Part shown: positions 4,612-20,285 of the stretch, piece by piece | Layout of the letters: each line of letters begins with the position of its first letter | How positions within the stretch are numbered: the stretch's first letter is position 1 | DNA from: a virus | Strand: one strand, 5' to 3' | Length of the DNA: 20,798 nucleotides | Virus record (IMG/VR): IMGVR_UViG_3300033153_003687 | Span: 1 to 20,798 of that record | Made by a program: the position numbers and the translations under genes | The notes under the pieces: generated by a model | Seen by the model: only the letters and a program-made list of their open reading frames with translations | What the model was told of the DNA's origin: nothing | Database searches by the model: none

Positions 4612-6687
4612 CTACCTACCGCTCCCAAGGTACCGTATTACCTTTCCGTTCTCATCGACAAGAGCTAGTCTCATTTTCCAGTTAGTGTCGGCATTCTGAA
4701 CATACCTCCTCTGTCTGACGCTCTCCTCTGCACTGTCTATAAGCCTAGGCTCGTACTTAGAATGTGCCTGAGCGTTTATATACGCAAAAACCATTGAGAA
4801 GATACCGTCATCATAATTTGTCTTCAAATCTGCAGCTTGAAATCTTGTCTCACGATGAGACGACCTACCGGCCAGATCCTTTTCGACGAAGGTCTTTATT
4901 TGCTCGAAGAACCACTCGATATAGATATTGGGTGCGTATGCGTCAATCATCTCAATGATCTTACCGGCGATGTAGCCGGCGGTGTTCGCCTTGTTGGCTA
5001 TCCCCCAAAACTTGCTGGACGGGGTTTGCATGTGGGTAGGTAGAGCTCTGTTGGCCACCAATCTTCTACTGTACCCAACCATGTCTTGGAAGTCGACATA
5101 CGAATCACCTATATTGCTCTCCACTAGTTCTTTAGCTCCGCCTCCGACCTGATCAAAGTAGAGACCTTGTAGGAGGCACTGGAGGTAACACTCCTTGTAT
5201 GCCCTTACTCTCCAGAACACCATCGAGGCGCATGTATTGTTCAGAGCATCCCAAATTGAGGAGGACATCTTTGAGTGTCCAGTCTCAGAGTTAATTGGAT
5301 CCGTTCCTTGGTACCATCGATATTCCCAATTCTCCCCCTGAGGAGGATGCTTGAACACCACGGAGGATGTTCTCTCGTCGCCCCGACCTTCCGTAGGAAT
5401 GAATCTACTTCCGACAAGCTTGAATGGAAGAGCTCCATCTGGAGTGGGTGATGTCTGGTCGTATATCGGCTCAAAGTATCCATACTGAGGCTGATCGACT
5501 GGGTTCATGTTGTAAATCTTCGAGAGGTACTTGTTGCATTCATCCACAGGGATTATGGTCAAAGCAGTTCTGAGGAACATGTCCTCAAGGGTTATTGGGT
5601 AGTGCTGGTGGAACTGAACCTTGGATGAGGCTGCGTCAACTCCAGTTACACCGTAGTACAGCTTCTTCTCTGATCTGTACCTCTCGTCCGTCATACCCTG
5701 CCTTGCATAGGCATCAAAGAACAATGGAATGATTCCATGCGCGTGATTGCCTTCTTTCCAGTTCTTGAGAGCTGACTTGAACTCCGCCTCGAATATAGCG
5801 CCACCCTTCCCCATTTCTCCACCAGTTCCCCAGCAGAACAATTGGCGTCTCATCTCCATTTGCTTGGTTTCTGGGTTGAAGAAGAATAGTGTTGGACGAC
5901 CTTCACGAACCATTTTTCCGAAAAGCTCCAATAGGCCAATTTCATCGATAAGAACAAGGTTAGGGGATCCACCGTTAATGGCATCTACAGCTGGAGTCGA
6001 AACCTCGATTCTAGAGTAAGATCCTTTAGTCTCACCCTTCTTAGCTTTTTCTTGAAGAGACAGGACGTTGTGAGCATCATTGTATGCCGGAAGCCTCAAC
6101 CAATCTTCTATCTGACCAAAACCCCATCTAATCTTGTCTCGGAAAATTTCTTCACCCTTATCCTTGGTATGTGTGATAAATTTAACAAAGTACGACTTGT
6201 TGAAGTTAATCTTCTTCATCGCAGCCAGACCCATCGTGGTAGTGAAACCAATCTGGCGACCTTTACCGATGATACAGTTGTATCCGCTGTCCAGAAGGAA
6301 CAGCAGGATCTGCTGTGGTTCCCAAGCTGTGTACTTGATCTTACCTCCTTGGGCGTCACCTTCCTTGAGGTAGCCATACTTGTTGGCGAAGTAAAGGGTG
6401 TTGTCCTGACATCTCTGGTACTCCTGAATGACGTAATCTTCCTGATCAGCCTCATCCCTGTAGTTCAGGATGTCGTCGTCCTCTGCCAGCCAGTTCATGG
6501 CTTGCTTGACGTATATGTCGTAGGGCTTGTACTGGATCCGATTCTTCCAGCCCTTGTTGATGCTGTTTACCCATCTTACAAAAGATTTCGGGTACACCGT
6601 TGGTGCATGAAACGGCATCCATTCCTTGGTCTCGATATGGATAACCTCTTTGCTTAGGTCAAATGGTAAGTCTGAATTGTCGCTCAT
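4612..6687 (-). CDS. terL: Terminase large subunit (packaging ATPase-nuclease)
   Basis: This 691-aa motor protein would translocate DNA into the prohead through the portal and cut it. The ATPase domain shows a deviant Walker A, IIGKGRQIGFTT (residues 139-150), with the lysine at the front as in the KARQxGxST class, then Walker B LVLIDEIG (244-251) and a coupling motif QLFCWGTGG (282-290). The nuclease domain has GTDPINSETG (Asp463), the acidic VESNIG (522-527) and the late motif NYDDGIFS (Asp626/627), all expected for the RNase-H-like fold. The ATG at 6687 is preferred over an upstream TTG at 6714, which would overlap the previous gene by 26 bases; the chosen start lies one base after that gene's stop. 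It is longer than the common 450-600 aa but has all motifs. Confidence 0.93.
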   Translation of the reverse strand: MSDNSDLPFDLSKEVIHIETKEWMPFHAPTVYPKSFVRWVNSINKGWKNRIQYKPYDIYVKQAMNWLAEDDDILNYRDEADQEDYVIQEYQRCQDNTLYFANKYGYLKEGDAQGGKIKYTAWEPQQILLFLLDSGYNCIIGKGRQIGFTTTMGLAAMKKINFNKSYFVKFITHTKDKGEEIFRDKIRWGFGQIEDWLRLPAYNDAHNVLSLQEKAKKGETKGSYSRIEVSTPAVDAINGGSPNLVLIDEIGLLELFGKMVREGRPTLFFFNPETKQMEMRRQLFCWGTGGEMGKGGAIFEAEFKSALKNWKEGNHAHGIIPLFFDAYARQGMTDERYRSEKKLYYGVTGVDAASSKVQFHQHYPITLEDMFLRTALTIIPVDECNKYLSKIYNMNPVDQPQYGYFEPIYDQTSPTPDGALPFKLVGSRFIPTEGRGDERTSSVVFKHPPQGENWEYRWYQGTDPINSETGHSKMSSSIWDALNNTCASMVFWRVRAYKECYLQCLLQGLYFDQVGGGAKELVESNIGDSYVDFQDMVGYSRRLVANRALPTHMQTPSSKFWGIANKANTAGYIAGKIIEMIDAYAPNIYIEWFFEQIKTFVEKDLAGRSSHRETRFQAADLKTNYDDGIFSMVFAYINAQAHSKYEPRLIDSAEESVRQRRYVQNADTNWKMRLALVDENGKVIRYLGSGR

Positions 6688-6688
6688 G

Positions 6689-7246
6689 TCATTCCTCGTT
6701 GTCTTCGCGTCCAAAAGTAAACGGCAAATCCTCTTCCATTGCCTTATCGAACATCGGCAGCTTATACTTGATTCGGTGGAACGAACCTTTCCAAGCGTAT
6801 GCCGGATTAATGTGGTAGACTATACTTCCTTTTCTCCCAGTCGAGACTACAGACCCTGATCTATCAAGTTCCTTCATGGATCTGTTGACCGTTCTAGTAG
6901 ACATACCCAGAAACTCGGCTATCTTTCTATGTGTTAGACCATACGCGCTGTTGTCGTATTTCATATTTCCCAGCATCATACACAGGATCCTAAACGAATT
7001 TCCGCTGAGCTTCTTGCAGAGCTCCATCTGAGTTTCTTGGTAGATCATAGCGAAGCTGAGACCTTTAGTGTTTCGCTTCTTGATGTCTTGAATGAATTTC
7101 TCGGCGTCTTCCGGAATCCCCTCAGCGATAGGGATCATGCCCCCAGTCTGCTTGTCAACAACGTAGATGGTTTCGATCTCGAGAATGTTCTCGTCAATCC
7201 TAGCCAGCTCGTTGTGTAGTAAGTGATATACTCTCTTCGTTCCCAT
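6689..7246 (-). CDS. Winged-helix DNA-binding protein, candidate small terminase (RepL-like fold)
   Basis: Residues 103-150 form a clear winged helix-turn-helix: GLTHRKIAEFLGMSTRTVNRSMKELDRSG (the HTH), then a wing ending SIVYHINPAYAWKG. The tyrosine-x-hydrophobic-NP ending after an HTH is typical of RepL-type plasmid replication initiators and related regulators. The gene sits directly between an HNH nuclease and the large terminase, with one base to the terminase start. In many cos-type phages that slot holds the small terminase subunit, which recognises the packaging site with an HTH. I therefore infer a site-recognition role in packaging; a replication initiator or late regulator is the alternative. 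The N-terminal 60 residues and the C-terminal 30 are not recognised. Confidence 0.85.
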   Translation of the reverse strand: MGTKRVYHLLHNELARIDENILEIETIYVVDKQTGGMIPIAEGIPEDAEKFIQDIKKRNTKGLSFAMIYQETQMELCKKLSGNSFRILCMMLGNMKYDNSAYGLTHRKIAEFLGMSTRTVNRSMKELDRSGSVVSTGRKGSIVYHINPAYAWKGSFHRIKYKLPMFDKAMEEDLPFTFGREDNEE

Positions 7247-10170: not shown

Positions 10171-10367
10171 TCTGTCAATATACCCACTACCTAACTAATT
10201 GAAAACCAACCCCTCTTCCTATCTAATTGTAGTTATTATATATGTTTACTTACTATTAAGTATTGATCCTGCCCCTCCCAGTATTCAGTTCACCAGAATA
10301 ATGTGTGGCACTATACTGCTATATAGCTAACTCTACTCTTTCTTATTAGTATATGCATCGATATTGG

Positions 10368-10405
10368 ATGCGTCCGCATATCCGAGCGCATGTTCGTCCG
10401 CATAT
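10368..10405. repeat. Tandem CGTCCGCATAT repeats, related to the 13.9-kb inverted repeat
   Basis: CGTCCGCATAT occurs at 10371-10381 and 10395-10405 (24-base period). The first, extended as ATGCGTCCGCATAT, matches at 13 of 14 bases the complement of the right arm of the hairpin at 13912-13925. These look like binding sites for one regulator. Confidence 0.5.
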
Positions 10406-10962
10406 ATAGGTACCTGCTATATAGATACCCCTCCCCCTTAATTTATTGGTAGTCAACAAGTTAGGGATGCCTATTTCCTGTCTGGGAGAAAAAACTACTA
10501 GGGGGGCGTTTACAGGGTGTTCGTGTATGTGGGGGTACTATTATATACATCCGGCCCCTCCCCTATCTGAGGGAAAACCGAACCGCGACAAATGCACCTT
10601 ATGAGAGGGCGTAACTATCTTTACCTCTTTTTGGGGCTAATTGATTGAGGGCCAACACGTTACAGGGGGTGATTATTGTCGTTATTTGGCCTATTTGTCG
10701 TGGTTTTGGGGGGTTGTGAGTTGTTTTGGCGCTCGTCTGTAGGAAGAAGTACATAACCCAATCCCCTTAATCCCAGTGATACCAACGCTTTGCGGCTGCA
10801 TTGCGCTCGCATCACCTTAGCATACTACACACACACGGTTAACACTATATTAAGCCTATTATGTTAAGATGTCCAACTAATTACGCTAATTTTATTCTAT
10901 TGATCCTCAGTTAGTTACAAGTTATTTGTTGCGTTCTCGTAACTTTTATTGAAGTATCAGCG

Positions 10963-11488: not shown

Positions 11489-11849
11489 TATTGCCTAGGG
11501 TGTACGCAATAGCGTGAACCGGTGCCACATTGGAACCACCACACCCACTAGTTAACCGCCGCCGAAAGGTAGCAACCGGACAAATGCACGTCTTTACGTG
11601 TGCCCTCTTTAGGGTGTCCAATAGTGTTGCCACTTAGTATGCGTATTATAATAGCGGGGACATCTTGAATGGATTGCATTAATACTAACAATGCAGCACC
11701 CTTGTGACTCGGGGTTAATAGACCAACAACACAGACACGGAACAGCCGTATCAATTGATAGCTATCTGGCAGCATCTTGTTAATCATCGCCGCGATTGAA
11801 ATATCGCCGAGAACCTTAGTAAAGGGGAAACAGTCAGAACAAACAACAA

Positions 11850-11898
11850 CCTATTCACCACTACAAACGTGAGTAGGCCACAGGTCACAATGATCTGT
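11850..11898 (+). repeat. tRNA-like half (anticodon-arm and T-arm look-alike) within the structured RNA
   Basis: A 9-bp hairpin (11850-11877) carries CTACAAACGTGAG at 11861-11873, identical to bases 12026-12038 of the downstream tRNA. It is followed, after two bases, by a 7-bp hairpin ACAGGTC-acaat-GATCTGT that corresponds in place and partly in sequence to the tRNA T-arm (CAGGT and AAT shared). It may be a decayed tRNA duplicate or a tRNA mimic. Confidence 0.5.
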
Positions 11899-11956
11899 AC
11901 ACTAAAGTGTCCGCTGTATCTGCGTAGTGGACGATAAGCTCAACGCAGAGACAACT

Positions 11957-11990
11957 AGCACCGAGGCAACCATAAGACCTCGGTGCTTTT
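11957..11990 (+). terminator. Perfect 10-bp terminator-like hairpin before the tRNA
   Basis: AGCACCGAGG (11957-11966) pairs fully with CCTCGGTGCT (11978-11987) around an 11-base loop, followed by a run of T ending at 11990. It would end the upstream structured RNA. The tRNA starts five bases later, so some read-through or processing is implied. Confidence 0.8.
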
Positions 11991-11994
11991 ATAT

Positions 11995-12068
11995 GTTCCA
12001 GTAGCTCAGTGGCAAGAGCACTCGCCTACAAACGTGAGAGGTCGCAGGTTCGAATCCTGTCTGGAATA
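11995..12068 (+). tRNA. tRNA with 8-base anticodon loop; identity uncertain
   Basis: The cloverleaf is clear: acceptor GTTCCAG/CTGGAAT (one G-T at the end), D-arm GCTC/GAGC, anticodon stem CTCGC/GTGAG (one G-T), variable AGGTC, T-arm GCAGG-TTCGAAT-CCTGT, discriminator A; no CCA is encoded. Between the anticodon stem strands are eight bases, CTACAAAC (12026-12033), instead of seven. Reading after the conserved T gives ACA (would be Cys), an unusual A34 anticodon; shifted readings give CAA (Leu) or a four-base ACAA. Extended loops are known in frameshift-suppressor tRNAs. It may be functional with special decoding, or degraded. It is the only tRNA in the window. Confidence 0.85.
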
Positions 12069-12087
12069 CTCATCAACAATCAATACA

Positions 12088-12195
12088 ATGATCACACTTA
12101 ACTGCCAATGCTGCGGGAAACAATTCCTGAACGCAAGCCAAACACATTCAGCAACTACGTGCATCATCTGCACAGTTAACGCCAAGAAAACATGA
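12088..12195 (+). CDS. 35-aa putative zinc-ribbon protein
   Basis: The chosen ATG (12088) follows an A/C-rich leader with CATCAACAATCAATACA. A longer upstream frame runs through the tRNA and is not credible. The protein has two Cys pairs, CQCCG (Cys6/8/9) and CIIC (Cys25, Cys28), a minimal zinc-ribbon layout. Its stop overlaps the next ATG as ATGA. Function unknown. Confidence 0.65.
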   Translation: MITLNCQCCGKQFLNASQTHSATTCIICTVNAKKT

Positions 12196-12422
12196 ACACA
12201 CCAGAACGTATCAACGACATCCTAGACGGTGCAGGATCCTCATTCTATTCAGACGAGGTAAAGCACGTAAGAGCAAACGTATTCCAATCAATCGAACACA
12301 GCTGCATAGTTCACTACACTAACGCCGAACTTTACTACCTTGACGAAGAAATGTTAATGGTTATGAAGGGTGCCGACGAGGTAATCGAGACAAGCAAAGG
12401 CACCGCATACGCATTCAATTAA
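12192..12422 (+). CDS. Unknown 76-aa protein
   Basis: A small alpha/beta-looking protein (PERINDILDGAGSSFYSDEVKHVRANVF, residues 4-31; VHYTNAELYYLDEEMLMVMKG). It is coupled to the zinc-ribbon gene by a four-base overlap. Its stop TAA begins the leader TAATCTCTATCAACC of the next gene, a variant of the repeated leader motif of this arm. No family recognised. Confidence 0.7.
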   Translation: MNTPERINDILDGAGSSFYSDEVKHVRANVFQSIEHSCIVHYTNAELYYLDEEMLMVMKGADEVIETSKGTAYAFN

Positions 12423-12434
12423 TCTCTATCAACC

Positions 12435-12584
12435 ATGAAATACAAGCTCAACAGGCGTAGAAGAATCGGAGACTCGAACTTCTACATAAGCAGCGGAGGG
12501 CTGTTCTGGACAAGAGCACCCAAAACGCCGGTGACTGGGATAACCCAGCGCGGTAAAACTAAACCATTCTTCACCTGTAACTAG
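12435..12584 (+). CDS. Unknown 49-aa basic protein
   Basis: A short frame starting MKYKLNRRRRIGDSNFYISSGG and ending KPFFTCN. It is basic, and the Tyr/Phe/Trp pattern (LFWTRAPKTPVTG) suggests a small beta fold. It is supported by its leader CTATCAACC and by close packing (12 bases after the previous stop, six bases before the next start). Function unknown. Confidence 0.6.
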   Translation: MKYKLNRRRRIGDSNFYISSGGLFWTRAPKTPVTGITQRGKTKPFFTCN

Positions 12585-12590
12585 ACAGCC

Positions 12591-12737
12591 ATGAAACCTA
12601 AACCAGAGAAATACAGCAGCGCATTCAGCAACGAAGCATCCAGAGTAGCAGCAGCATTCTGCACTGAACTATGGATGAACACCCTAGACGGAAACATATT
12701 TTTACAGGAGATCCAACGTAGGATCCAAGACAATTAA
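12591..12737 (+). CDS. Unknown 48-aa helical protein
   Basis: MKPKPEKYSSAFSNEASRVA followed by AFCTELWMNTLDGNIFLQEIQRRIQDN, largely helical. It fits tightly between neighbours in the array and lies in the same orientation. No family recognised. Confidence 0.6.
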   Translation: MKPKPEKYSSAFSNEASRVAAAFCTELWMNTLDGNIFLQEIQRRIQDN

Positions 12738-12757
12738 TCATCAAACATCGAGACATC

Positions 12758-12940
12758 ATGAAAAATTCAATCAACTCAAAAGCAGTAAAGAACGAAGTGT
12801 TAGCCGCAAAAGCTAAAGGACAGACTTCTAAGGTATCAACCAAGGTGGTATCCGAGACAGCGATCCTGTTAGGGTTCGTGCTCGCACTAGGTGCCGCAAT
12901 CACCATCAACGCTATAAACCATGGCTTCCCGTCATTCTAA
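12758..12940 (+). CDS. 60-aa small membrane protein
   Basis: The N-terminal half is lysine-rich and soluble (KNSINSKAVKNEVLAAKAKG). Residues 34-52 (TAILLGFVLALGAAITINA) form one hydrophobic membrane segment, so an N-in single-pass inner-membrane protein is likely by the positive-inside rule. The leader reads AATCATCAAACATCGAGACATC. Function unknown; small phage membrane proteins often act in superinfection exclusion or takeover, but nothing specific points there. Confidence 0.7.
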   Translation: MKNSINSKAVKNEVLAAKAKGQTSKVSTKVVSETAILLGFVLALGAAITINAINHGFPSF

Positions 12941-12950
12941 ACCCATAACT

Positions 12951-13283
12951 ATGTCAGGTAAAACCAAAAAATGGAAGGTTGTCGGGGAGCTCGATAACAT
13001 CCAGATCGTACAGGAGAAAGACCTCGGAGAAGGCGACATTCAAGACCATGGAGTAGCAAGAGTAGGCTGCTGGAGTCATGAGGTGCCAGACTACCACGAG
13101 GCTGAGGAGAACGCTCACCTCATGTCAGCATCACCAGATCTACTCAAGGCGCTCACCGAACTAACAGATTTCTTGAAGTTCAACCACCCAGAGGAGGGGC
13201 GGAAGTACGACGATGACAGACACGAGGAGCTAACCGCCGAAGCAGAGGCAGCAATCAGGAAAGCTAAGAACCAAAACCCATAA
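12951..13283 (+). CDS. Phage protein with AHLMSASPDLLKAL motif, 110 aa
   Basis: The ATG at 12951 (MSGKTKKWKVVGELDN) is preferred to one at 12921 that overlaps the membrane protein, because its context AAACCCATAACTATGTCAG nearly repeats that of the next gene (AAACCCATAACCATGTCAG). The motif NAHLMSASPDLLKALTEL (about residues 76-92) corresponds to the NAxLIAAAPDLLEAL motif of many small phage proteins of unknown function. The N-terminal part is beta-like (WKVVGELDNIQIVQEKD). It ends with a helix EAEAAIRKAKNQ. A two-base gap separates it from the next gene. Confidence 0.75.
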   Translation: MSGKTKKWKVVGELDNIQIVQEKDLGEGDIQDHGVARVGCWSHEVPDYHEAEENAHLMSASPDLLKALTELTDFLKFNHPEEGRKYDDDRHEELTAEAEAAIRKAKNQNP

Positions 13284-13285
13284 CC

Positions 13286-13510
13286 ATGTCAGTATCAAAT
13301 CCAGACAACAACGTGGAACTAGTATTGAACCTCATGAACTTCAGCCCATTCGGAGCAATGGGTCAAGCATTCATTATCAACGCCATCCGAGAGTACTCGG
13401 AGACTGTAGTAGACAACAACGAGGACGGTGTGTGGTGTGAGATAGCCAAGGACGTCCAGACACGATGCGATGCCTTCTACAACAGACACGATCCTAAACC
13501 TGAGATATGA
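13286..13510 (+). CDS. Conserved-type phage protein (FSPFGAMGQAFIINAI motif), 74 aa
   Basis: The core FSPFGAMGQAFIINAIREYSE, then VWCEIAKDVQTRCDAFYNRH, matches a recurrent small phage protein family as I recall it; the function is unknown. It is helical overall. The stop overlaps the next ATG as ATGA. Confidence 0.75.
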   Translation: MSVSNPDNNVELVLNLMNFSPFGAMGQAFIINAIREYSETVVDNNEDGVWCEIAKDVQTRCDAFYNRHDPKPEI

Positions 13511-13878
13511 ATAACAACGAAAGCAATAAGCTAATAGGTAAATTCATGGGGATCCAAGTCAGAACCTATATGGGAGGAAGGGTTTCCTACAATCCCGACA
13601 AAGACTGGGCTTTACTGATGCCTGTTATCGACAAGCTCGAAAGCATATCAAGACCGGAGCCAGACAGGAAGGACGAATTTCTGGTGTGCGACATAAGAAT
13701 GGAGTTCTGTTCTACATCTAAAGAGAACGGAGACCCATGCTACACTACCACCATCACTGCGTCTTACAAGGATTACGATTTCGGATACATAGCCGAGGTC
13801 AGCCACAGAAGGATCGAATCAGTCTACAAGGCAGCGGTCAGGCTAATAGAATATTTAACCCCATTTATTGTTGATTGA
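13507..13878 (+). CDS. Conserved-type phage protein (DWxxLMPVIDKLE ... ESVYKA family), 123 aa
   Basis: Two landmarks identify the family: LIGKFMG and DWALLMPVIDKLESI in the first half, and RIESVYKAAVRLIEYL near the end. Related proteins are very common in Bacteroidota phages and have no known role. The first half lies around a beta segment, and the middle (VCDIRMEFCSTSKENGDPCY) carries three cysteines. It ends a translational run; a 98-base non-coding gap with inverted repeats follows. Confidence 0.8.
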   Translation: MNNNESNKLIGKFMGIQVRTYMGGRVSYNPDKDWALLMPVIDKLESISRPEPDRKDEFLVCDIRMEFCSTSKENGDPCYTTTITASYKDYDFGYIAEVSHRRIESVYKAAVRLIEYLTPFIVD

Positions 13879-13890
13879 TGAAGAGTGGAT

Positions 13891-13960
13891 ATGCATCCGC
13901 ATTGCTCACGTATATGCGGATGCATTGAAATTCGATGCATTTATTAATAAGATCTATTAA
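13891..13960 (+). promoter_or_regulatory. Intra-operon regulatory gap with two inverted repeats
   Basis: ATGCATCCGCAT (13891-13902) and ATGCGGATGCAT (13914-13925) are perfect inverted copies around 11 bases. A third ATGCAT follows at 13935-13940. TTAATA/TATTAA (13944-13949 with 13955-13960) forms a second inverted repeat. The lack of a T-run after the first hairpin argues against a simple terminator; an operator or promoter region for the downstream genes is more likely. The first repeat shares its core with repeats at 10368-10405. Confidence 0.6.
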
Positions 13961-13976
13961 TTAGAACTATATAGTT

Positions 13977-14267
13977 ATGAAAGTATTAGAAGTAGCCGGA
14001 AGGCGAGTAACCATAAACATAGATCTCTTATCAAGAGGGTTGTGTGACATGCACAATCAGTACGAGGAGAAAAAGCTAGTACTAGCATTCGGAATGCTGG
14101 ACGCTCAGCTTATAGAGATCTTCGAAAGGAATATGACCAAGATGGTCAAGGACGAGTTCACGCCAGAGGCTAACGAACTGTTCAAAGATCGTATCGAGGC
14201 ATTCATCAACGACGTTAACAACGAAATAGCCAAGGGAGTGTACAAGTACGCTACCATGGTCGTTTAA
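13977..14267 (+). CDS. Unknown 96-aa helical protein
   Basis: The N-terminus is a short beta segment (MKVLEVAGRRVTINIDLL); the rest is mostly helical (EKKLVLAFGMLDAQLIEIFERNMTKMV, IEAFINDVNNEIAKGVY). It is the first gene after the 13.9-kb regulatory gap, so it may head a separate transcription unit. No family recognised. Confidence 0.7.
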   Translation: MKVLEVAGRRVTINIDLLSRGLCDMHNQYEEKKLVLAFGMLDAQLIEIFERNMTKMVKDEFTPEANELFKDRIEAFINDVNNEIAKGVYKYATMVV

Positions 14268-14281
14268 TCAATATCAACAGT

Positions 14282-14491
14282 ATGAAAATATTCGATCACA
14301 TACTTGACGGACACGAAGCCACCCTCCAGAACGCTCAAAACCACGCAAGAGGGCTCGACTGGATGGAGGTAGAGGTTATGGAGCAAGACAAACCAGCTCA
14401 TAGCGGGTTCATGATCGAAGAGATCAACGGAGTAGGCATCTATTACGATTACGGTGCCGACTATTACTTTTTCACCGACGAAACGTCATAA
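14282..14491 (+). CDS. Unknown 69-aa acidic protein
   Basis: An acidic, aromatic-rich small protein (HILDGHEATLQNAQNHARGLDWM, then GVGIYYDYGADYYFFTDE). The leader holds an exact TAATCAATATCAACA (14265-14279), whose TAA is the previous stop. Function unknown. Confidence 0.7.
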   Translation: MKIFDHILDGHEATLQNAQNHARGLDWMEVEVMEQDKPAHSGFMIEEINGVGIYYDYGADYYFFTDETS

Positions 14492-14503
14492 ATCAACAAC
14501 ATC

Positions 14504-14758
14504 ATGGGACAACGAGAAAAAAGAATGCCAAAAGATCAGTACTTCCTTTCAAGACTACTTGAATTAAGGCCAGAGATCGACCATTCACCAAAAGGAGTGA
14601 ACTCTATATTCGCACCTCAGAAGGACATCGAGACAGCGAAGGACATGATCAGAAAAGCAGGGGATGACCCAGCTATGATCGAAATAGGCATCGGATGCCT
14701 TATATCAACCATCATAAGCCAGTACTACCTAGTGCCTAAAGATCAGCAAGATGATTAG
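14504..14758 (+). CDS. Unknown 84-aa protein
   Basis: Starts MGQREKRMPKDQYFLSRLLEL and has a hydrophobic helix in the second half (MIEIGIGCLISTIISQYYL) that is probably buried but could contact a membrane. It overlaps the next gene by eight bases. The leader is AAATCAACAACATC. No family recognised. Confidence 0.65.
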   Translation: MGQREKRMPKDQYFLSRLLELRPEIDHSPKGVNSIFAPQKDIETAKDMIRKAGDDPAMIEIGIGCLISTIISQYYLVPKDQQDD

Positions 14759-15152
14759 GCCATTCAAGGTACGCTTCCACCTAGGTGCCGGCAAGAACTA
14801 CATGACGTGGAGAGTAGAGGATCTTCGAACCAAAGAAGTGAACTTCTACCAGCCAGACGAGGTTTGTATAGAGATGGGCGGATGTAAGCTATACAACCAG
14901 AAAGGCATGGCCACTAAGATATATGAGGGACGCAACCGATCGGTATGTGCCTTTATTAGGTGTGACAACATTATGGTACACGTTTTTGACGCTCAACCCA
15001 TGTACGTCACCGTCAATAGATTTGCACCCCAGTTCCGCATATCTTACAACCCTAAGACATTACCATACTGGAGAGATGCCCAAGGAAAGGACATCGACAA
15101 GACGGAGCACACCAGCATCGTCACCAAAGACAGGAGTTTATTCACGACCTAA
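14751..15152 (+). CDS. Phage protein with HLGAGKNYMTWRVE segment, 133 aa
   Basis: The N-terminal part (FKVRFHLGAGKNYMTWRVEDL, then VNFYQPDEVCIEMGGCKLYNQKG) resembles small beta-rich phage proteins seen elsewhere, from memory; the function is unknown. The remainder is also beta-like (SVCAFIRCDNIMVHVFDAQPMYVTV) with a basic tail, including an NPKTLPYWRDAQG segment. The start overlaps the previous gene by eight bases. Confidence 0.75.
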   Translation: MIRPFKVRFHLGAGKNYMTWRVEDLRTKEVNFYQPDEVCIEMGGCKLYNQKGMATKIYEGRNRSVCAFIRCDNIMVHVFDAQPMYVTVNRFAPQFRISYNPKTLPYWRDAQGKDIDKTEHTSIVTKDRSLFTT

Positions 15153-15165
15153 ATCACTATCAATC

Positions 15166-15375
15166 ATGTCAGAAGAACCGAAAAAAGTATATGTAGTAAA
15201 TCATGGAGGGAGCCAAACCTCCTTTTACGAATGGCAAAAAGACGAAGCAGAGAATGATTATTCCTTTTGGAAAGAGTATTACGACATGAGTGACAATGTT
15301 GTGATACTATTCAAGGACGGTGTAGCCGTCAAGAAAGTGACCTACACAACTGTAGTAACAGAAGAAATTCTTTAA
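15166..15375 (+). CDS. Unknown 69-aa protein
   Basis: The ATG at 15166 follows the leader AAATCACTATCAATC; a longer frame beginning at 14923 lies inside the previous gene and is rejected. The protein is acidic and aromatic (VYVVNHGGSQTSFYEWQKDE, YSFWKEYYDMSDNVVILFKDG) and ends in beta-type VAVKKVTYTTVV. Function unknown. Confidence 0.65.
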   Translation: MSEEPKKVYVVNHGGSQTSFYEWQKDEAENDYSFWKEYYDMSDNVVILFKDGVAVKKVTYTTVVTEEIL

Positions 15376-15394
15376 CCGTTTAACAATCAACATC

Positions 15395-15649
15395 ATGACA
15401 ACAGAAGAAGCAAGACACCTAAACCGAGACATCAAGCGTCTGTGGAAGCGATTCCAGAAGGTGTATGGTACTGAAGGATTTCCATTAGAGAACGCGGCAA
15501 TCGAAAAGGAGTGGAAACGTCTATGGAAACTGGACGCACAAGCTGACTTCATGAAGGTCGAGCAGCTTAAAGCAATGATCCGAATGAACAATGCCAGAAG
15601 GTATATGGTTCTTCACTGGGTCGGTATTCAATTTGAACCAAACTTATAA
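15395..15649 (+). CDS. Unknown 84-aa helical basic protein
   Basis: Trp/Arg/Lys-rich helices (RHLNRDIKRLWKRFQKVYG, EKEWKRLWKLDAQADFMKVE) suggest a helical bundle with a basic face. The C-terminus is MVLHWVGIQFEPNL. The leader contains AACAATCAACATC. Two bases separate it from the next gene. No family recognised. Confidence 0.7.
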   Translation: MTTEEARHLNRDIKRLWKRFQKVYGTEGFPLENAAIEKEWKRLWKLDAQADFMKVEQLKAMIRMNNARRYMVLHWVGIQFEPNL

Positions 15650-15651
15650 CC

Positions 15652-15879
15652 ATGAGAACGATCGACAAAATCATTACAGAGGTAAGCACCAAGTTCGGAT
15701 CCCCTATGGGTAGATCCAACACTGGTGTACGACCAGATGAAGGTGCAATCTTTGACTGTGCCGTACCAATGAGCTCATGTGGTGCCTACGACAAAGGAGG
15801 TGCATACTGGGGAATTGGATCACAACTTCGAGTATCGTACACGAAGGATCTATCATACATCGAGTTTTATCGATACTAA
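15652..15879 (+). CDS. Conserved-type phage protein (GGAYWGIGSQLRVSYTKDLSYIEFYR), 75 aa
   Basis: The C-terminal half, YDKGGAYWGIGSQ followed by LRVSYTKDLSYIEFYRY, matches a small phage protein type I recall as common; it may be a standalone beta domain. The N-terminal half includes SPMGRSNTG and a CAVPMSSCG pair of cysteines. Function unknown. Its stop TAA opens an exact TAATCAATATCAACA leader (15877-15891) of the next gene. Confidence 0.75.
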   Translation: MRTIDKIITEVSTKFGSPMGRSNTGVRPDEGAIFDCAVPMSSCGAYDKGGAYWGIGSQLRVSYTKDLSYIEFYRY

Positions 15880-15890
15880 TCAATATCAAC

Positions 15891-16127
15891 ATGGCAAGAA
15901 AATTCGCAGCAACACTCGCAAAAGAGTACGAGTTAGGCAATGAAGCAGAAGACTTCTTCAACTACATCATCGATAGCCTTATAAATGGGCAGCGTCAACA
16001 GATGTCCGACCTTTTCAACGAGATGAGAGGGTACGACCAGAAGACATTTCTTGTTGACTTTCTTGACGAGAGTATCGGGATTCACAAATCAGTTAAAAAC
16101 CTTTGCATAGGAGAGCTAATAAGATGA
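15891..16127 (+). CDS. Unknown 78-aa helical protein
   Basis: The ATG follows directly on the TAATCAATATCAAC leader; an upstream frame from 15777 overlaps the previous gene and is rejected. Mostly helical (FAATLAKEYELGNEAEDFFN, FLVDFLDESIGIHKSVKNL). The stop overlaps the next ATG as ATGA. Function unknown. Confidence 0.7.
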   Translation: MARKFAATLAKEYELGNEAEDFFNYIIDSLINGQRQQMSDLFNEMRGYDQKTFLVDFLDESIGIHKSVKNLCIGELIR

Positions 16128-16534
16128 AAGTACTCAGAGAAGTAGGGCAGTTTAGGCTCTGCGAGGATGACTCAGCAGGGTACAAGGTTTACTACGTGGA
16201 GAACACGATCCTAACCAAGTACACGAAAGGTAAAGGCGGTTCGTACAATTTCGATGAAGAAATCAAGATCTTATTGCTTAGAATGAGCGATTCGAGTTTC
16301 GGGGCCGCATGTAAGTACAGGGCTGGCAACGACATCGACTGCAAGGAAGTGGCTGTAAGCCTGTGGGACGAGCTAGGGGATACACCCGTCGATGATGATG
16401 GGTGTCTGGACGAGGATTTCACTACTCATACCGGAGAGGTATTCGAAAAAGGAACCGATCGAGAAGAAATCTGGCAGTGGTTTGAGAGTTGTTTCAAGCT
16501 ATCTGTAGCAGAGGATCTAATGTTCATCAAATAA
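16124..16534 (+). CDS. Unknown 136-aa acidic protein
   Basis: The start at 16124 (MKVLREVGQFRLCEDD) is coupled by ATGA to the previous stop; an upstream GTG/ATG-type extension from 16103 is not needed. The N-terminal third is beta-like (YKVYYVENTILTKYTKG), followed by helices and a very acidic loop (PVDDDGCLDEDFTTHTGEVF). It ends WQWFESCFKLSVAEDLMF. Function unknown. Confidence 0.7.
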   Translation: MKVLREVGQFRLCEDDSAGYKVYYVENTILTKYTKGKGGSYNFDEEIKILLLRMSDSSFGAACKYRAGNDIDCKEVAVSLWDELGDTPVDDDGCLDEDFTTHTGEVFEKGTDREEIWQWFESCFKLSVAEDLMFIK

Positions 16535-16539
16535 TCGCC

Positions 16540-16728
16540 ATGAAAGTAAAGCGCAAAATTCAAGAGGTTCATATATCATCTATAGCACACGGAGATACAA
16601 TTCTGCACATTGATGGAAATGTAAGAACAGTAAGTAGAGGAAACATAAAAAGAGGTTTTACAGGCATTACACTGTTCGGAGATTCCTATAGAATGGGTAG
16701 TATTCTAGTGAAAAAGATAATTATATAA
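16540..16728 (+). CDS. Conserved-type phage protein (GFTGITLFGDSYRMG motif), 62 aa
   Basis: The ATG at 16540 is chosen (MKVKRKIQEV); the longer frame from 16489 lies in the previous gene. The layout HGDTILHIDGNVRTVSRGNIK, then GFTGITLFGDSYRMGSI, is that of a small all-beta protein recurrent in Bacteroidota phages, function unknown. The gene is more AT-rich than its neighbours. Its start is five bases after the previous stop. Confidence 0.75.
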   Translation: MKVKRKIQEVHISSIAHGDTILHIDGNVRTVSRGNIKRGFTGITLFGDSYRMGSILVKKIII

Positions 16729-16757
16729 ACCCTCATCAAACAATCAATATCAACATT

Positions 16758-17525
16758 ATGAAAATACTTAGCGACAAGGAGCTTGACAAGCTCATGGTGC
16801 TCATAAATGAGCATGGTTTAGAGCCTACTTGGATGAATTACGGCGGATTCTCAAAGCTTTACAAGGCATTTAACCACCACCCTGACCACAGGGAAGAAAG
16901 AGAGCACCTCGAAGGAATGTACGGAATATCGGTTGGCACGATCATATACCAAGTCACTGACGATAAGTACAGCACGTACATCACACCAGAGCAGCACAAA
17001 CGATTTGATGCCCTTGTGTCTGAAATAAAAGAAAGGGAGCAATTCAAGAAGGATCTTCTTTATGCGTTCAACAGCTACACATACGAGTTCACCGTGTATT
17101 CTAGGGCGTTCATAGATGTATCTTGGGGACAGAACTGGTACACAACTAACAAGATGGGCGCTCATCTACCTCTTGATGCCAGCAAGGACAGGGACGACGG
17201 TTTGAGGGCTGAAGCTGAATATAGAGCCAAGAAGATGGTGGCTCATATGGAGAAGAACGGGAAGACCGTTGATGGGTATCAGGTGTGCAAAGTTTACACC
17301 GACGTACACTACCTTAAAGAGGAATGGAACGAGATACTCAACATGGGTAAATCGTTTCACGACAACCACCCCACCCACCAGAGTAGAAGAGCCTCAAGGG
17401 ACAACGTGTCTCATCGAATCGACGATTTTATGCCTGTAACACTGAAGAGTACGGGCAGAAAGATGTTGATGGAAATGAATGGGTACGGTTGGAACTTCAT
17501 CGAAACAGAACCAGTAGTTAAATAA
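16758..17525 (+). CDS. Unknown 255-aa protein
   Basis: One of the larger rightward genes, but not recognised. The N-terminal half looks helical with His-rich AFNHHPDHREEREHLEG (residues 37-53) and TIIYQVTDDKYSTYITPEQHKRF. The middle has SYTYEFTVYSRAFIDVSWGQNWY, and a second part includes the basic HPTHQSRRASRDNVSHR and the end MLMEMNGYGWNFIETE. It lacks clear catalytic motifs. The leader CAATCAATATCAACATT precedes the start. Its stop TAA begins the next exact leader copy. Confidence 0.75.
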   Translation: MKILSDKELDKLMVLINEHGLEPTWMNYGGFSKLYKAFNHHPDHREEREHLEGMYGISVGTIIYQVTDDKYSTYITPEQHKRFDALVSEIKEREQFKKDLLYAFNSYTYEFTVYSRAFIDVSWGQNWYTTNKMGAHLPLDASKDRDDGLRAEAEYRAKKMVAHMEKNGKTVDGYQVCKVYTDVHYLKEEWNEILNMGKSFHDNHPTHQSRRASRDNVSHRIDDFMPVTLKSTGRKMLMEMNGYGWNFIETEPVVK

Positions 17526-17539
17526 TCAATATCAACATT

Positions 17540-18064
17540 ATGACACCAATCAAACTACAACCATTGAGCCAGAGAGCTCTGTACTCCCAGCTTTATGATT
17601 CTATAGGGTATTCGCATTCAGATAGATTTGACAGGGAGACAGATCCAAGCCAAGTCTTAGACAAAGAAACTGGTCAGGTGTACATCATGCCTACTGAAGA
17701 AGAAGAAAACGTTTACAAAGAAGAAAAGGCTCGACTTGATGCCATTGAAGAGAAGCGTAAAGCCAACCTCTACAATAACCATCCGAACATAATCATTGAC
17801 TACAACAATTCTGAGCGATGGAAGGAAGGTCTTTCTGAGCTTAAGAAAGGCGGTATCGTAGAGATGTGCGAAGAATCATTCTGGCACTTTCTGGAGTGTG
17901 TCCCACCAAGAAGACAAGGATCAAACTCCTACGTGAGTGGAGAACCATATACCCACAACAGCAAAGGAGAGTCAGTCTATCTATGTGGGATCCATAAAGG
18001 AAATAAGTATTACGCCCAGTATGGTACCGTGAATGAGTACGAAAACAAAAAACTATTCAAATAA
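17540..18064 (+). CDS. DUF1419-like protein, 174 aa
   Basis: The second half has ESFWHFLECVPPRRQGSNSY (about residues 112-131) followed by VSGEPYTHNSKGESVYLCG, which is the layout of DUF1419-type proteins (SFWyfLexLPPxR ... GEPyxH). That family is known from phages and plasmids and has no assigned function. The first half is helical and charged (EEEENVYKEEKARLDAIEEKRK). An exact TAATCAATATCAACA copy (17523-17537) precedes it. Confidence 0.75.
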   Translation: MTPIKLQPLSQRALYSQLYDSIGYSHSDRFDRETDPSQVLDKETGQVYIMPTEEEENVYKEEKARLDAIEEKRKANLYNNHPNIIIDYNNSERWKEGLSELKKGGIVEMCEESFWHFLECVPPRRQGSNSYVSGEPYTHNSKGESVYLCGIHKGNKYYAQYGTVNEYENKKLFK

Positions 18065-18070
18065 AACACC

Positions 18071-18253
18071 GTGAAAGACTACCTACACTGTACCGTCACC
18101 AAAACTGACGGAAGCACCTACGTTAATGAGCTGATGCTCAGCGAGGTTCACCTCGTCAAAGCTATTCTGAAGGAGGAAAAAAATGAGAGCATTGATGTTC
18201 GCATTACCGAGGTGACCAAAGAGAGGTATGAATCAATATTCGGAAAATCATGA
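18071..18253 (+). CDS. Unknown 60-aa protein with GTG start
   Basis: The frame opens at GTG (18071), six bases after the previous stop, and its TGA overlaps the next ATG. The protein is MKDYLHCTVTKTDGSTYVNEL and later helical (EVHLVKAILKEEKNESIDVRITEV). The unusual start may lower its expression. No family recognised. Confidence 0.65.
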   Translation: MKDYLHCTVTKTDGSTYVNELMLSEVHLVKAILKEEKNESIDVRITEVTKERYESIFGKS

Positions 18254-18510
18254 AGTACACAAGCAAAACATATGCAGACGGAGTAACAGCTATCTATAAG
18301 GACAACGAGTTCTTGTGTGAGACTCATGGGTCCAAGGATGCAGAGCTAATCTTGGACGCCCTTCGTAAGGCTGACATCACGCCGGCGGCGAGAGGATATA
18401 GCCAAGGACGGCGAGACGAGGGATGCGTACACGATTGGACCTTCATAGGTCATCAATTCAATGGACACAAAGAATGCACTAAGTGCGGAGCTCAAGGAGA
18501 GTACAACTAA
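18250..18510 (+). CDS. 86-aa protein with C-terminal zinc-ribbon-like segment
   Basis: The N-terminal part is beta-like (MKYTSKTYADGVTAIYKDNE), followed by a helix (DAELILDALRKADI) and a basic region. The end, CVHDWTFIGHQFNGH then CTKCGAQ (Cys59/His61 and Cys77/Cys80 approx), is a C-x-H...C-x-x-C pattern that could bind zinc, as in short phage proteins with CxHDW motifs. Function unknown. The stop TAA starts an exact leader repeat (18508-18522). Confidence 0.7.
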   Translation: MKYTSKTYADGVTAIYKDNEFLCETHGSKDAELILDALRKADITPAARGYSQGRRDEGCVHDWTFIGHQFNGHKECTKCGAQGEYN

Positions 18511-18525
18511 TCAATATCAACAATC

Positions 18526-18771
18526 ATGGCAAAAACTAAAATTCAATTCCTAATTCACCCAGATGAACCAGAAGTATTCGCTTATTTCCCAGACCTTGAC
18601 TTCGACCTTCAGGGGAATAAAACCTGTTATGCTCACATAGGTCAGCACGGTGCGTGTAATCCAGCCTATGCTCAGGAGTGTAGAGGCGCAACCAAAGAAG
18701 AGTATAAAGCTCTTAAAACGGAGCTTACTGACTTAGTTGGCTACGAAGATCTAAAAGTAATCAAGTCATGA
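18526..18771 (+). CDS. Conserved-type phage protein (VFAYFPDL ... CYAHIGQHGAC), 81 aa
   Basis: Landmarks are EVFAYFPDLDFD, CYAHIGQHGACNPAYAQEC, then EEYKALKTELTDLVGYEDLKV, which together recall a widespread small phage protein of unknown function. Three cysteines and a histidine in the middle may bind metal. The stop overlaps the next ATG (ATGA), coupling it to the PAPS-reductase-like gene. Confidence 0.75.
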   Translation: MAKTKIQFLIHPDEPEVFAYFPDLDFDLQGNKTCYAHIGQHGACNPAYAQECRGATKEEYKALKTELTDLVGYEDLKVIKS

Positions 18772-19655
18772 GTGCGGCGCTAACGGTATTGTCATACGGC
18801 GGTGGTCAAGACTCAGATGCCATACTCAAGAAGATCATGTATGATCCAGAGTTCGCGTCCAAGTACGTCAAGGGCAAGCTGATCGTCATAATGGCCGAGA
18901 CAGGCAACGAGCACCCAGAGACGTATGAACACGTCAAGAAGGTTCAGGAGGAGTGCAAGGTGATGGGGATCGAGTTCTACCACCTCAACTATTACTACAC
19001 CGGAGAAGGCTGGAAAGGCGGTCTGATCGAGTTCTACAAGCGAGGTAACCGAATAGGATCCAAGGCATTCCCTAAGACGTGTACCGACAAGCTTAAGATC
19101 CAGCCCATCTACAAGTTCTTAGAGGACTATGTGTATCTACACTATAACGAGATAGGTGTGGTGGGAAGAAAGAGAGCTATCAAGAAATTCAATAAGCTGT
19201 ACGGTAGGATCAACGTCCTGATCGGTATAGCCAAGGGGGAAGAGAAACGTGCCAGTACAAATGAAGAATCCCCCAGCGTCTGGATGAGAGAGTGCATCAA
19301 CAAGGTGTATCCTCTTATCGAGGAGGGCATGGGGCGACAGGAATGTCAGGACTATATCACATCCAAAGGACACGAGGTTCCTAGGCCATCCGCATGCATC
19401 TTGTGCCCATTCATGAATGACATCGAGCTACTGGCATTGTACAGATTCAAGCCAGAGTGGTACGCCAAATGGGTGGAGCTTGAAGCAAACAAGATAGCCG
19501 CTAACCAACACGTAGAGAACAACTTAGGTGTGTGGGGAAACAAACTACTACCAGAAAAGCTGGTACAGGTGACCGAGAAGTATGGGCACATGACAGACGA
19601 GGATCTGCGTGAGTACACCATGAGTCACGGACATTGCGTAAAATCCAAGTATTAA
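18768..19655 (+). CDS. PAPS reductase / PP-loop ATP pyrophosphatase family protein
   Basis: Residues 9-20, SYGGGQDSDAIL, form the PP-loop (SGGxDS type, with Gln at the usual Lys place), followed by AETGNEHPET (43-52), KTCTDKLKIQPI (103-114), IGIAKGEEKR (152-161) and YPLIEEGMGRQECQDYI (181-197). PSACILCPF (207-215) gives Cys210/Cys213, which with Cys105 and perhaps Cys290 could hold an iron-sulfur cluster or serve redox chemistry. The family includes sulfate-assimilation reductases and the DNA/tRNA sulfur-modification enzymes DndC and TtcA. Phage members are common and their substrate is mostly unknown; nucleic acid thiolation or sulfur supply are plausible. No other dnd-type gene is visible. 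It is the largest gene of this arm. Confidence 0.85.
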   Translation: MSAALTVLSYGGGQDSDAILKKIMYDPEFASKYVKGKLIVIMAETGNEHPETYEHVKKVQEECKVMGIEFYHLNYYYTGEGWKGGLIEFYKRGNRIGSKAFPKTCTDKLKIQPIYKFLEDYVYLHYNEIGVVGRKRAIKKFNKLYGRINVLIGIAKGEEKRASTNEESPSVWMRECINKVYPLIEEGMGRQECQDYITSKGHEVPRPSACILCPFMNDIELLALYRFKPEWYAKWVELEANKIAANQHVENNLGVWGNKLLPEKLVQVTEKYGHMTDEDLREYTMSHGHCVKSKY

Positions 19656-19683
19656 TCAATATCAACACGAAGAAACCAAAACT

Positions 19684-19863
19684 ATGATGACCGAGGAAAG
19701 TATAAAAGATTGGATGTTTGGAGTACTGATTTGTGAGTTTGAAGAAATTGACAAAGACAGACTAAAAGCAGTTAGAGATAGGTTGTTTAACGTGATGACT
19801 GAGGAAGGAAATTTAGTTGTACAACAAAACGAACCTGTAAATCAAAACAAAGAAGATGAGTAA
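19684..19863 (+). CDS. Unknown 59-aa acidic protein
   Basis: MMTEESIKDWMFGVLICEFEE, then a helix DRLKAVRDRLFNVM, and a polar tail ending NQNKEDE. Two adjacent ATG codons (19684, 19687) are possible starts. The leader carries both an exact TAATCAATATCAACA (19653-19667) and AAACCAAAACT. It overlaps the next gene by eight bases. Confidence 0.65.
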   Translation: MMTEESIKDWMFGVLICEFEEIDKDRLKAVRDRLFNVMTEEGNLVVQQNEPVNQNKEDE

Positions 19864-20047
19864 AGAAAACATAGAGTACATGGGAGACGGTGTTTATGCC
19901 GAGTACACAGGATATTCAATAGACATTAGAGTTAATGACCATAGAAACCCCGTATCAGTGTCTTTAGAGCCTGCGGTTCTTGAAGCTATTGTTGACTTTC
20001 ATAAAAGAAAAACACGTCAGCTAAACCAAAGAAAAGAAGATGAATAA
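19856..20047 (+). CDS. Conserved-type phage protein (DGVYAEYTGYSIDIRVNDH), 63 aa
   Basis: The pattern GDGVYAEYTGYSIDIRVNDH with PVSVSLEPAVLEAIVDF recalls a recurrent small phage protein, function unknown. It is a compact beta protein with one C-terminal helix and a KEDE end. The start ATGAGTAA overlaps the previous stop by eight bases. Confidence 0.75.
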   Translation: MSKENIEYMGDGVYAEYTGYSIDIRVNDHRNPVSVSLEPAVLEAIVDFHKRKTRQLNQRKEDE

Positions 20048-20060
20048 AATCACTATCAAC

Positions 20061-20285
20061 ATGAAAAAGCCAACACTAAAAGAAATATTTGAAGATAACA
20101 ACTGGATAATAACTTCTATCCTTAAGGGGTATAACGGAAAACACAGGATCGATGCGAGAAGAAGGCACCCTGTGGCTGACGTAAGTTCGTTCTTCAGCGA
20201 GTGGGGTTCAGAGAAATACCTGAACAAACTATCGATAGATAATTACGGAAGAAAAATATCCGGATTTAAAACCCTCAATTTATAA
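20061..20285 (+). CDS. Unknown 74-aa basic protein
   Basis: I choose the ATG at 20061 because its leader AAAATCACTATCAAC matches the leader repeat of this arm; an in-frame ATG at 20040 overlapping the previous stop would add seven residues and is possible. The protein is basic (HRIDARRRHPVADVSSFFSEWG) and ends SGFKTLNL. No family recognised. Confidence 0.65.
   Translation: MKKPTLKEIFEDNNWIITSILKGYNGKHRIDARRRHPVADVSSFFSEWGSEKYLNKLSIDNYGRKISGFKTLNL

Follow-up and report, generated by a model that had tools for sequence, protein, structure and literature searches.

A repeated, G-free leader before non-structural genes of an uncultured phage, a probable signal for translation starts that lack a Shine-Dalgarno sequence

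The uncultured phage IMGVR_UViG_3300033153_003687 features a 14-nt leader, AATCAATATCAACA, in six exact copies within the window, that is, the whole stretch of 20,798 nt that was scanned. The repetition is non-random and far beyond chance. The leader is probably the standard element by which this phage initiates or reinitiates translation without a Shine-Dalgarno (SD) sequence, in a manner resembling the Start-Associated Sequences (SAS) of mycobacteriophages. All six exact copies are on the plus strand and sit between rightward genes, and the leftward terminase/portal half, which is structural, contains none. A T directly precedes the 14-mer in five of the six copies, which yields the 15-mer TAATCAATATCAACA. 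The five 15-base copies of the original prediction (starting at 14265, 15877, 17523, 18508, and 19653), its 14-base copy at 16742, and its near copies before the starts at 12435, 15166, and 20061 were all recovered at the same places. The features are as follows, all on the plus strand.

12088..20285, plus strand: rightward cluster of small non-structural genes using the motif; junctions overlap, abut, or have a spacer of 11–29 nt, usually with the leader
12420..12434, plus strand: near copy TAATCTCTATCAACC; its TAA is the stop of gene 12192–12422; ATG at 12435
14265..14279, plus strand: exact 15-mer; TAA is the stop of gene 13977–14267; ATG at 14282
14489..14503, plus strand: weaker family member TAAATCAACAACATC (3 of 13 positions mismatched); TAA is the stop of gene 14282–14491; ATG at 14504
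15150..15165, plus strand: near copy TAAATCACTATCAATC; TAA is the stop of gene 14751–15152; ATG at 15166
15382..15394, plus strand: weak family form AACAATCAACATC (5 of 13 mismatched); ATG at 15395
15877..15891, plus strand: exact 15-mer; TAA is the stop of gene 15652–15879; the final A of the motif doubles as the first base of the ATG at 15891
16741..16755, plus strand: CAATCAATATCAACA, containing the exact 14-mer from 16742; away from a stop, the previous one lying at 16726–16728; ATG at 16758
17523..17537, plus strand: exact 15-mer; TAA is the stop of gene 16758–17525; ATG at 17540
18508..18522, plus strand: exact 15-mer; TAA is the stop of gene 18250–18510; ATG at 18526
19653..19667, plus strand: exact 15-mer; TAA is the stop of gene 18768–19655; ATG at 19684, after a second A-rich stretch
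20045..20060, plus strand: near copy TAAAATCACTATCAAC; TAA is the stop of gene 19856–20047; ATG at 20061

When up to three mismatches to the motif are allowed, nine matches are observed against 0.90 expected, and the maximum of 100 shuffles is five. Under a stricter null, which preserves the position-specific composition of the leaders, the commonest leader 10-mer still occurs five times against a null maximum of two over 100 sets. Two subtypes are present, AATCAATATCAACA and AATCACTATCAA, and the motif scan places AAATCACTATCAACA at 20047, within the near copy before the ATG at 20061.

The layout at most copies is a stop, then 11 to 15 nt of leader, then an ATG. In all five copies of TAATCAATATCAACA, the gene before the motif terminates in frame at its TAA (ending at 14267, 15879, 17525, 18510, and 19655), as had been claimed for the typical case, and the sole exact copy away from a stop, at 16741, reads CAA in its place. 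The ATG is spaced from the end of the 15-mer by 2, −1 (overlap), 2, 2, and 3 nt in five copies and by 16 nt at 19653; the predicted typical spacing of 0–4 bases does not extend to this last copy, where a second leader-like stretch follows the motif. The genes behind the motif are mutually unrelated, in line with the original description: blastp among the rightward proteins gave no meaningful paralogy (best E about 0.02), conservation does not extend into the flanks beyond the 15 bases, and identity stops sharply at the motif edges. The expectation that the leader precedes many rightward genes proved too broad, as it is repeated before several but marks only a subset of starts. Most other junctions overlap or have a gap of at most 10 nt, whereas the motif, or a variant mismatched at no more than three of 13 positions, occurs in 9 of the 12 junctions with gaps of 11–29 nt. 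The leader would serve the non-overlapping gene pairs, with stop–start coupling serving the overlapping ones (ATGA-type junctions).

The motif contains no G; hence, it is not an SD sequence, and pairing with the CCUCC anti-SD is excluded. The genome as a whole is SD-poor. In the leaders of 28 rightward genes, A occupies position −3 in 82%, −6 in 75%, and −12 in 68%, and the values are still 77, 68, and 64% when the motif genes are left out. These leaders have the makeup of SD-independent Bacteroidota initiation regions (A at −3, −6, and −12/−13; no SD), and in Flavobacterium johnsoniae initiation is reported to be tuned at −3, −6, and −12 (PMC6847099). The register is present at five of the six exact copies; the near copies at spacing 1 (12435 and 15166) lack A at −6. 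Across seven repeated leaders, including those of relatives and with the window motif entered twice at two spacings, five carry AAA at −3/−6/−12 in the true register and zero to two at shifted registers—an argument made post hoc, after the data had been seen. Motif starts are not predicted to be clearly more unpaired than other starts. The host is probably a Bacteroidota bacterium, since a distant terminase homologue lies in a Bacteroidetes MAG and TATATTTG, as in Bacteroidota −7 elements, occurs only on the strand of the leftward genes; no 16S gene was found in that MAG.

In the proposed mechanism, the leader would be part of a polycistronic message, where it separates the stop of a non-structural gene from the following start codon, and may offer SD-independent ribosomes an unpaired, A-spaced landing site. 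Alternatively, ribosomes may reinitiate on it directly after terminating at the TAA. The claim of a translation leader for ribosomes that do not use SD is in this way partly borne out and is the best-supported option, with the SD-poor genome, the A-3/A-6/A-12 pattern, and the convergence of the relatives' leaders in its favor. Against it, the majority of this phage's starts function without the motif, the copy at 19653 lies 16 nt from its ATG and is too far away for a simple initiation-context element, and generic selection acting on initiation regions should produce leaders alike in composition rather than six identical 14-mers. The repetition exceeds the composition null, so something beyond such generic selection is at work.

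The exact identity over 14 bases, its sharp edges, and the unrelated genes behind it would be best explained by an mRNA site for a phage-encoded factor, or one associated with a phage-modified ribosome, that binds RNA and raises or represses the marked genes as a regulon. This was among the predicted options and is on balance unlikely. A sequence confined to one genome, with other leaders in relatives, is what co-evolution with a diverging factor would produce, and a similar speculation exists for SAS, concerning the DUF3310 protein gp51 of Adephagia (PMC11373665). However, no candidate was identified on the contig, which is a fragment, the spacing to the start varies from 0 to 17 nt, and the generic SD-less positions are satisfied as well, so part of the signal needs no special factor. 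Phage-encoded bS21 was considered as such a factor and rejected, with none in 17 records, most of them fragments.

The motif is specific to this genome and otherwise common only to a 99.9% identical strain; it is absent from the other terminase relatives. A 15-mer scan of all viral contigs gave, among the matches listed, mostly single ones, as chance would give. When a near ATG is required, 13 stretches remain, of which only the near-identical strain has the motif before a real gene; in the rest, it precedes very short frames (47 codons or fewer). The original prediction was staked on the motif being kept in related phages with the same genes. It is literally absent there, and in some of these phages the same place is taken by another repeated leader, particular to that phage, which refutes conservation of the exact sequence only and not the idea of a leader element. 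Repeated leaders beside ATG in relatives are TAAACAACAAGAACA (G030), TAAAAACGATAGAT (G044), TAAAACCAAAACAAG (L272), and TAAAACTTATCAATC (G014), and the homologues of one gene have a different leader in each phage. Near-identity within a genome next to other leaders in relatives may reflect homogenization per phage or a phage-specific factor that recognizes the leader. A repeated leader exceeds the composition null in 11 of 165 loci (the window included, and some being overlapping pieces of one genome), and many relatives show none; therefore, repeated leaders are not a universal feature. A search with gene 16758 recovered no relatives, and an alignment of gene 17540 added nothing new. A conserved hexamer common to all SD-poor relatives was rejected: TATCAA is enriched in the window (6 versus 0.5), G014 (9 versus 1.6), and phi38:1 (9 versus 1.4) and not in the rest.

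A dispersed promoter or transcription start element is very unlikely. The copies are short, AT-rich intergenic repeats in a single orientation, and the repeats of halovirus HF2, likewise placed ahead of many genes in a single virus, have been demonstrated to act as promoters (PMC8707807). The HF2 repeats, however, span 29–58 bp and belong to a virus of an archaeal host, and here the motif touches the ATG or lies within 4 nt of it in five of six copies, which would make the transcripts leaderless. In addition, the motif lacks TAnnTTTG (the Bacteroidota sigma-ABfr −7 element), TATATTTG is confined to the opposite, leftward-gene strand, the copies are not preceded by any conserved sequence, and a sigma-70-type scan of the region found 18 sites against 20.5 expected, that is, no excess.

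Sharp identity borders at junctions of unrelated genes, and the junction at 19653 with its motif plus a second leader-like stretch, would also suit a recombination seam—a short homology for cassette exchange or insertion. This reading, too, is very improbable, and the predicted cassette shuffling gained no positive support. The motif is missing from the gene 17540 homologues of L272 and L273 and from the gene 18768 homologue of L208; those in L272 and L208 have the repeated leader of their own genome, so this leader is not carried along with cassettes. A single strain shares the region and shows no gene swap, and 14 bases are very short for homologous recombination. Least probable of all is an A-rich leader without sequence-specific function, recently copied by duplication or gene conversion and not yet drifted: its restriction to this phage and the near-identical strain and the two subtypes fit copying plus drift, but flanks and downstream genes bear no trace of a copied neighborhood, six copyings of exactly the leader are hard to explain, and the same pattern occurs with other sequences in other phages.

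The leader bears on two questions: how the ribosomes of Bacteroidota, which ignore SD sequences, are guided to their starts, so far answered only in part, and what mycobacteriophage SAS do, open since 2011. As the repeated leader lacks an SD core, its repetition cannot be an SD effect, which separates the two. A rather improbable extension would be that SD-less Bacteroidota phages place genome-specific leader "addresses" on non-structural genes, read by a co-evolving phage factor or a phage-altered ribosome; the second, SD-bearing leader class that some relatives have in the same genome would then permit a switch from ordinary to bS21-lacking ribosomes or back. Should the leader prove sequence-specific, it would make a useful defined expression element for Bacteroidota.

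Among known systems, SAS occur in cluster K mycobacteriophages (Pope et al. 2011, PMC3203893) and cluster EF Microbacterium phages (PMC7302621); their putative role is translational. Like the present motif, they are short (13–14 bp), asymmetric, and near-identical, occur in a single orientation a few nucleotides from the starts of unrelated small non-structural genes (here, −1 to 3 nt in five of six copies), and sometimes overlap the upstream stop codon. As a positive control, the same repeat test was applied to phage TM4 and recovered its known SAS (six copies, null maximum two). In contrast to the present motif, SAS hold the SD core AGGAG, which pairs with 16S rRNA, and their sequence, GGGATAGGAGCCC, is kept across a phage cluster; no upstream element resembling the ESAS is seen beside the motif. 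The SD-independent, Kozak-like context of Bacteroidota (A-3 and A-6; PMC6847099) shares the absence of SD and the A positions with the motif; there, individual positions show a statistical base preference, whereas here an identical 14-mer stands at several genes. The cultured Cellulophaga baltica phage phi38:1 features a stop-linked element, TAAACACTATCAAA, identified in this analysis, that differs in its flanking letters, its looser distance to the start, and its unrelated phage family. In its first 50 kb, CTATCAA occurs 18 times on the leftward-gene strand versus twice on the other. Both phages have a TAA stop with a TATCAA-containing element between it and the next start, which makes the leader question directly testable in a cultured phage.

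The leftward half of the window carries the terminase (4612–6714), the portal (330–2576), and other genes, and the rightward half carries small genes, mostly without informative matches. A rightward gene at 18768–19655 (+) resembles PAPS reductase by protein similarity. All copies of the repeated motif are confined to the rightward cluster, on its coding strand:

14265, 15877, 17523, 18508, and 19653, plus strand: exact 15-mer TAATCAATATCAACA (five exact matches)
16742, plus strand: sixth copy, exact match to the 14-mer AATCAATATCAACA
12420, plus strand: near form TAATCTCTATCAACC
15150, plus strand: near form TAAATCACTATCAATC
20045, plus strand: near form TAAAATCACTATCAAC

The five exact 15-base copies and the 14-base copy of the original prediction were all recovered in place, and the near copies that it set before 12435, 15166, and 20061 correspond to the three near forms. 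With up to three mismatches, the motif occurs nine times in the window versus 0.9 times in dinucleotide-preserving shuffles. Whether A-rich leader composition alone yields repeats was tested by regenerating the leaders of called genes from a position-specific first-order model in 100 synthetic sets; the commonest 10-mer occurs in five real leaders versus a synthetic maximum of two. In the same kind of test, phage TM4, a carrier of the Start-Associated Sequences (SAS) of cluster K mycobacteriophages, features GGATAGGAGCCC in six leaders (null maximum two)—the test hence detects a known SAS case.

Gene junctions fall into two classes, with either an overlap or gap of up to 10 nt or a gap of 11–29 nt; 9 of the 12 junctions in the latter class hold the motif or a form with up to three mismatches in 13. 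The TAA, predicted to be typically the stop of the gene before, is the in-frame stop in all five copies that carry it. The copy at 16741 lies away from any stop and reads CAA; the initial T of the others thus probably serves the stop codon, with the 14-mer AATCAATATCAACA as the actual element. This copy has an extra spacer upstream of the motif, and the copy at 19653 has a second A-rich stretch between motif and ATG; the motif is therefore not strictly tied to either the stop or the start. Upon alignment of the copies, the motif is identical throughout and the flanks are at background similarity only. The downstream genes are unrelated, as had been claimed, with paralogy of their proteins limited to weak chance-level matches.

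Absence from related phages, named beforehand as a refutation of the motif, applies to the exact sequence only: of 47 records sharing a related terminase or PAPS-type gene, many of them short fragments, a 99.9% identical strain is the only one to carry it. In gene 13286–13510 (near 13365 in the window), 12 nt are missing from this strain without loss of frame. Another strain, G001, is identical to the window over the left part and does not extend into the motif region. Several relatives have their own repeated leader, placed immediately ahead of ATG:

G030: TAAACAACAAGAACA
G044: TAAAAACGATAGAT or -C
L272: TAAAACCAAAACAAG and AAGGAGGACTRATT
G014: TAAAACTTATCAATC
G022: TAAAACAAAGTAA
G012: GGAGGTATAAG

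In the phages examined for it, genes sharing one leader are unrelated to each other. Gene 17540 and its homologues in L272 and the related locus L273 each have a different leader, three in all, and the PAPS-type gene bears the phage's own leader in the related locus L208 and none in the window. As judged by such differing leaders on homologous genes, the leader is a property of the genome rather than of the gene. Since 11 of 165 sampled loci (window included) exceed their null, repeated leaders are a minority feature. In addition, the 12.8-kb contig L086 contains ACCTCTTTACCT seven times, three of them near an ATG.

Shine–Dalgarno (SD)-like sequences are rare in the window (12% of leaders). 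The host is probably a Bacteroidota bacterium, as indicated by a terminase homologue with 37% identity in a Bacteroidetes MAG and by the word TATATTTG described below; the terminase search found no close terminase in cultured phages. In the leaders of 28 rightward genes, A occupies positions −3, −6, −12, and −13 in 82%, 75%, 68%, and 54% of cases (77%, 68%, 64%, and 55% without the six motif genes); the same positions have been reported in Flavobacterium johnsoniae (PMC6847099). The motif carries A at every third base. In the five exact copies with a near start, 0, 3, 3, 3, and 4 nt separate the end of AATCAATATCAAC from ATG; spacings of 0, 3, and 4 place A at −6 and −12, and 1, 2, and 5 would not. 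This fit, noticed afterwards and with a chance of about 3% if spacings of 0–5 are equally likely, is suggestive only. Among seven repeated SD-less leaders (the window motif enters twice, at two spacings), five have A at −3, −6, and −12 together at the true start versus zero to two when the start is moved by 1–3 nt. Repeated leaders of unrelated sequence hence converge on the register of SD-independent initiation, in support of a translational role.

The motif stands at the right place and in the right register for initiation, and a translation initiation or reinitiation leader, which would act on translation, is the best-supported reading. The exact identity of the repeats exceeds what generic leader selection explains, and a phage factor recognizing the leader sequence may be involved. 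A promoter function is disfavored by the distance of the motif to ATG, the lack of a −7 element in it and of conserved sequence upstream of its copies, and promoter-like sites without excess. The word TATATTTG, of the type found in Bacteroidota −7 promoter elements, occurs at 323, 4593, 8094, and 10124 (−), all four on the leftward-gene strand. Cassette shuffling at the motif is disfavored because homologues bear other leaders, the relatives compared including none of intermediate identity.

Two adjacent leftward genes of the window, 9533 and 9733 (−), feature the SD-bearing leaders GAGGAGGTGGGATC and TGGAGGCGGGATC before ATG, and AAGGAGG leaders occur in gene runs of the relatives G012 and L272 (L259 16460–19947; L272 15874–18219). 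Flavobacterium ribosomes without bS21 use strong SD sequences (PMC9976891), so such leaders in otherwise SD-poor phages could form a second translation class; no S21 gene was found in the records searched.

The window carries further features:

11489–11990, plus strand: about 500 nt without obvious gene
11995–12069, plus strand: tRNA with an 8-nt anticodon loop and the four-base anticodon ACAA (ARAGORN)
13891–13925: 12-bp inverted repeat without mismatches, ATGCATCCGCAT / ATGCGGATGCAT, lying in the gap of 98 bp that precedes gene 13977

The first region is strongly folded together with the tRNA after it (z −3.1). At its own end the region has a GC-rich hairpin with T's behind it, and it has no Rfam match at useful score. 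It holds a hairpin around CACTACAAACGTGAG, repeating the tRNA anticodon-arm sequence CTACAAACGTGAG; the tRNA is possibly frameshift-suppressor-like. The inverted repeat is a possible operator, and words similar to it lie at about 10352–10406.

Cellulophaga phage phi38:1 (NC_021796), of another family, is a cultured counterpart: it carries a stop-linked repeat, TAAACACTATCAAA, between leftward genes, with a TATCAA core like the window motif. In the first 50 kb, the leftward-gene strand has 18 copies of CTATCAA and the opposite strand has two; most lie a few nucleotides past a stop and 1–20 nt ahead of a start. Leaders of the window, G014, and phi38:1 show an enrichment of the core TATCAA; those of the other phages tested do not. 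By the 10-mer test alone, phi38:1 fails to exceed its null because its leaders are very A-rich; therefore, the strand bias is the evidence for its repeat.

The closest known system is SAS, whose role is not known according to its authors. In position, orientation, identity, and class of gene, the motif resembles SAS; two SAS features, an SD core and a conserved sequence, are missing from it. The motif is therefore akin to SAS but outside the SAS family.
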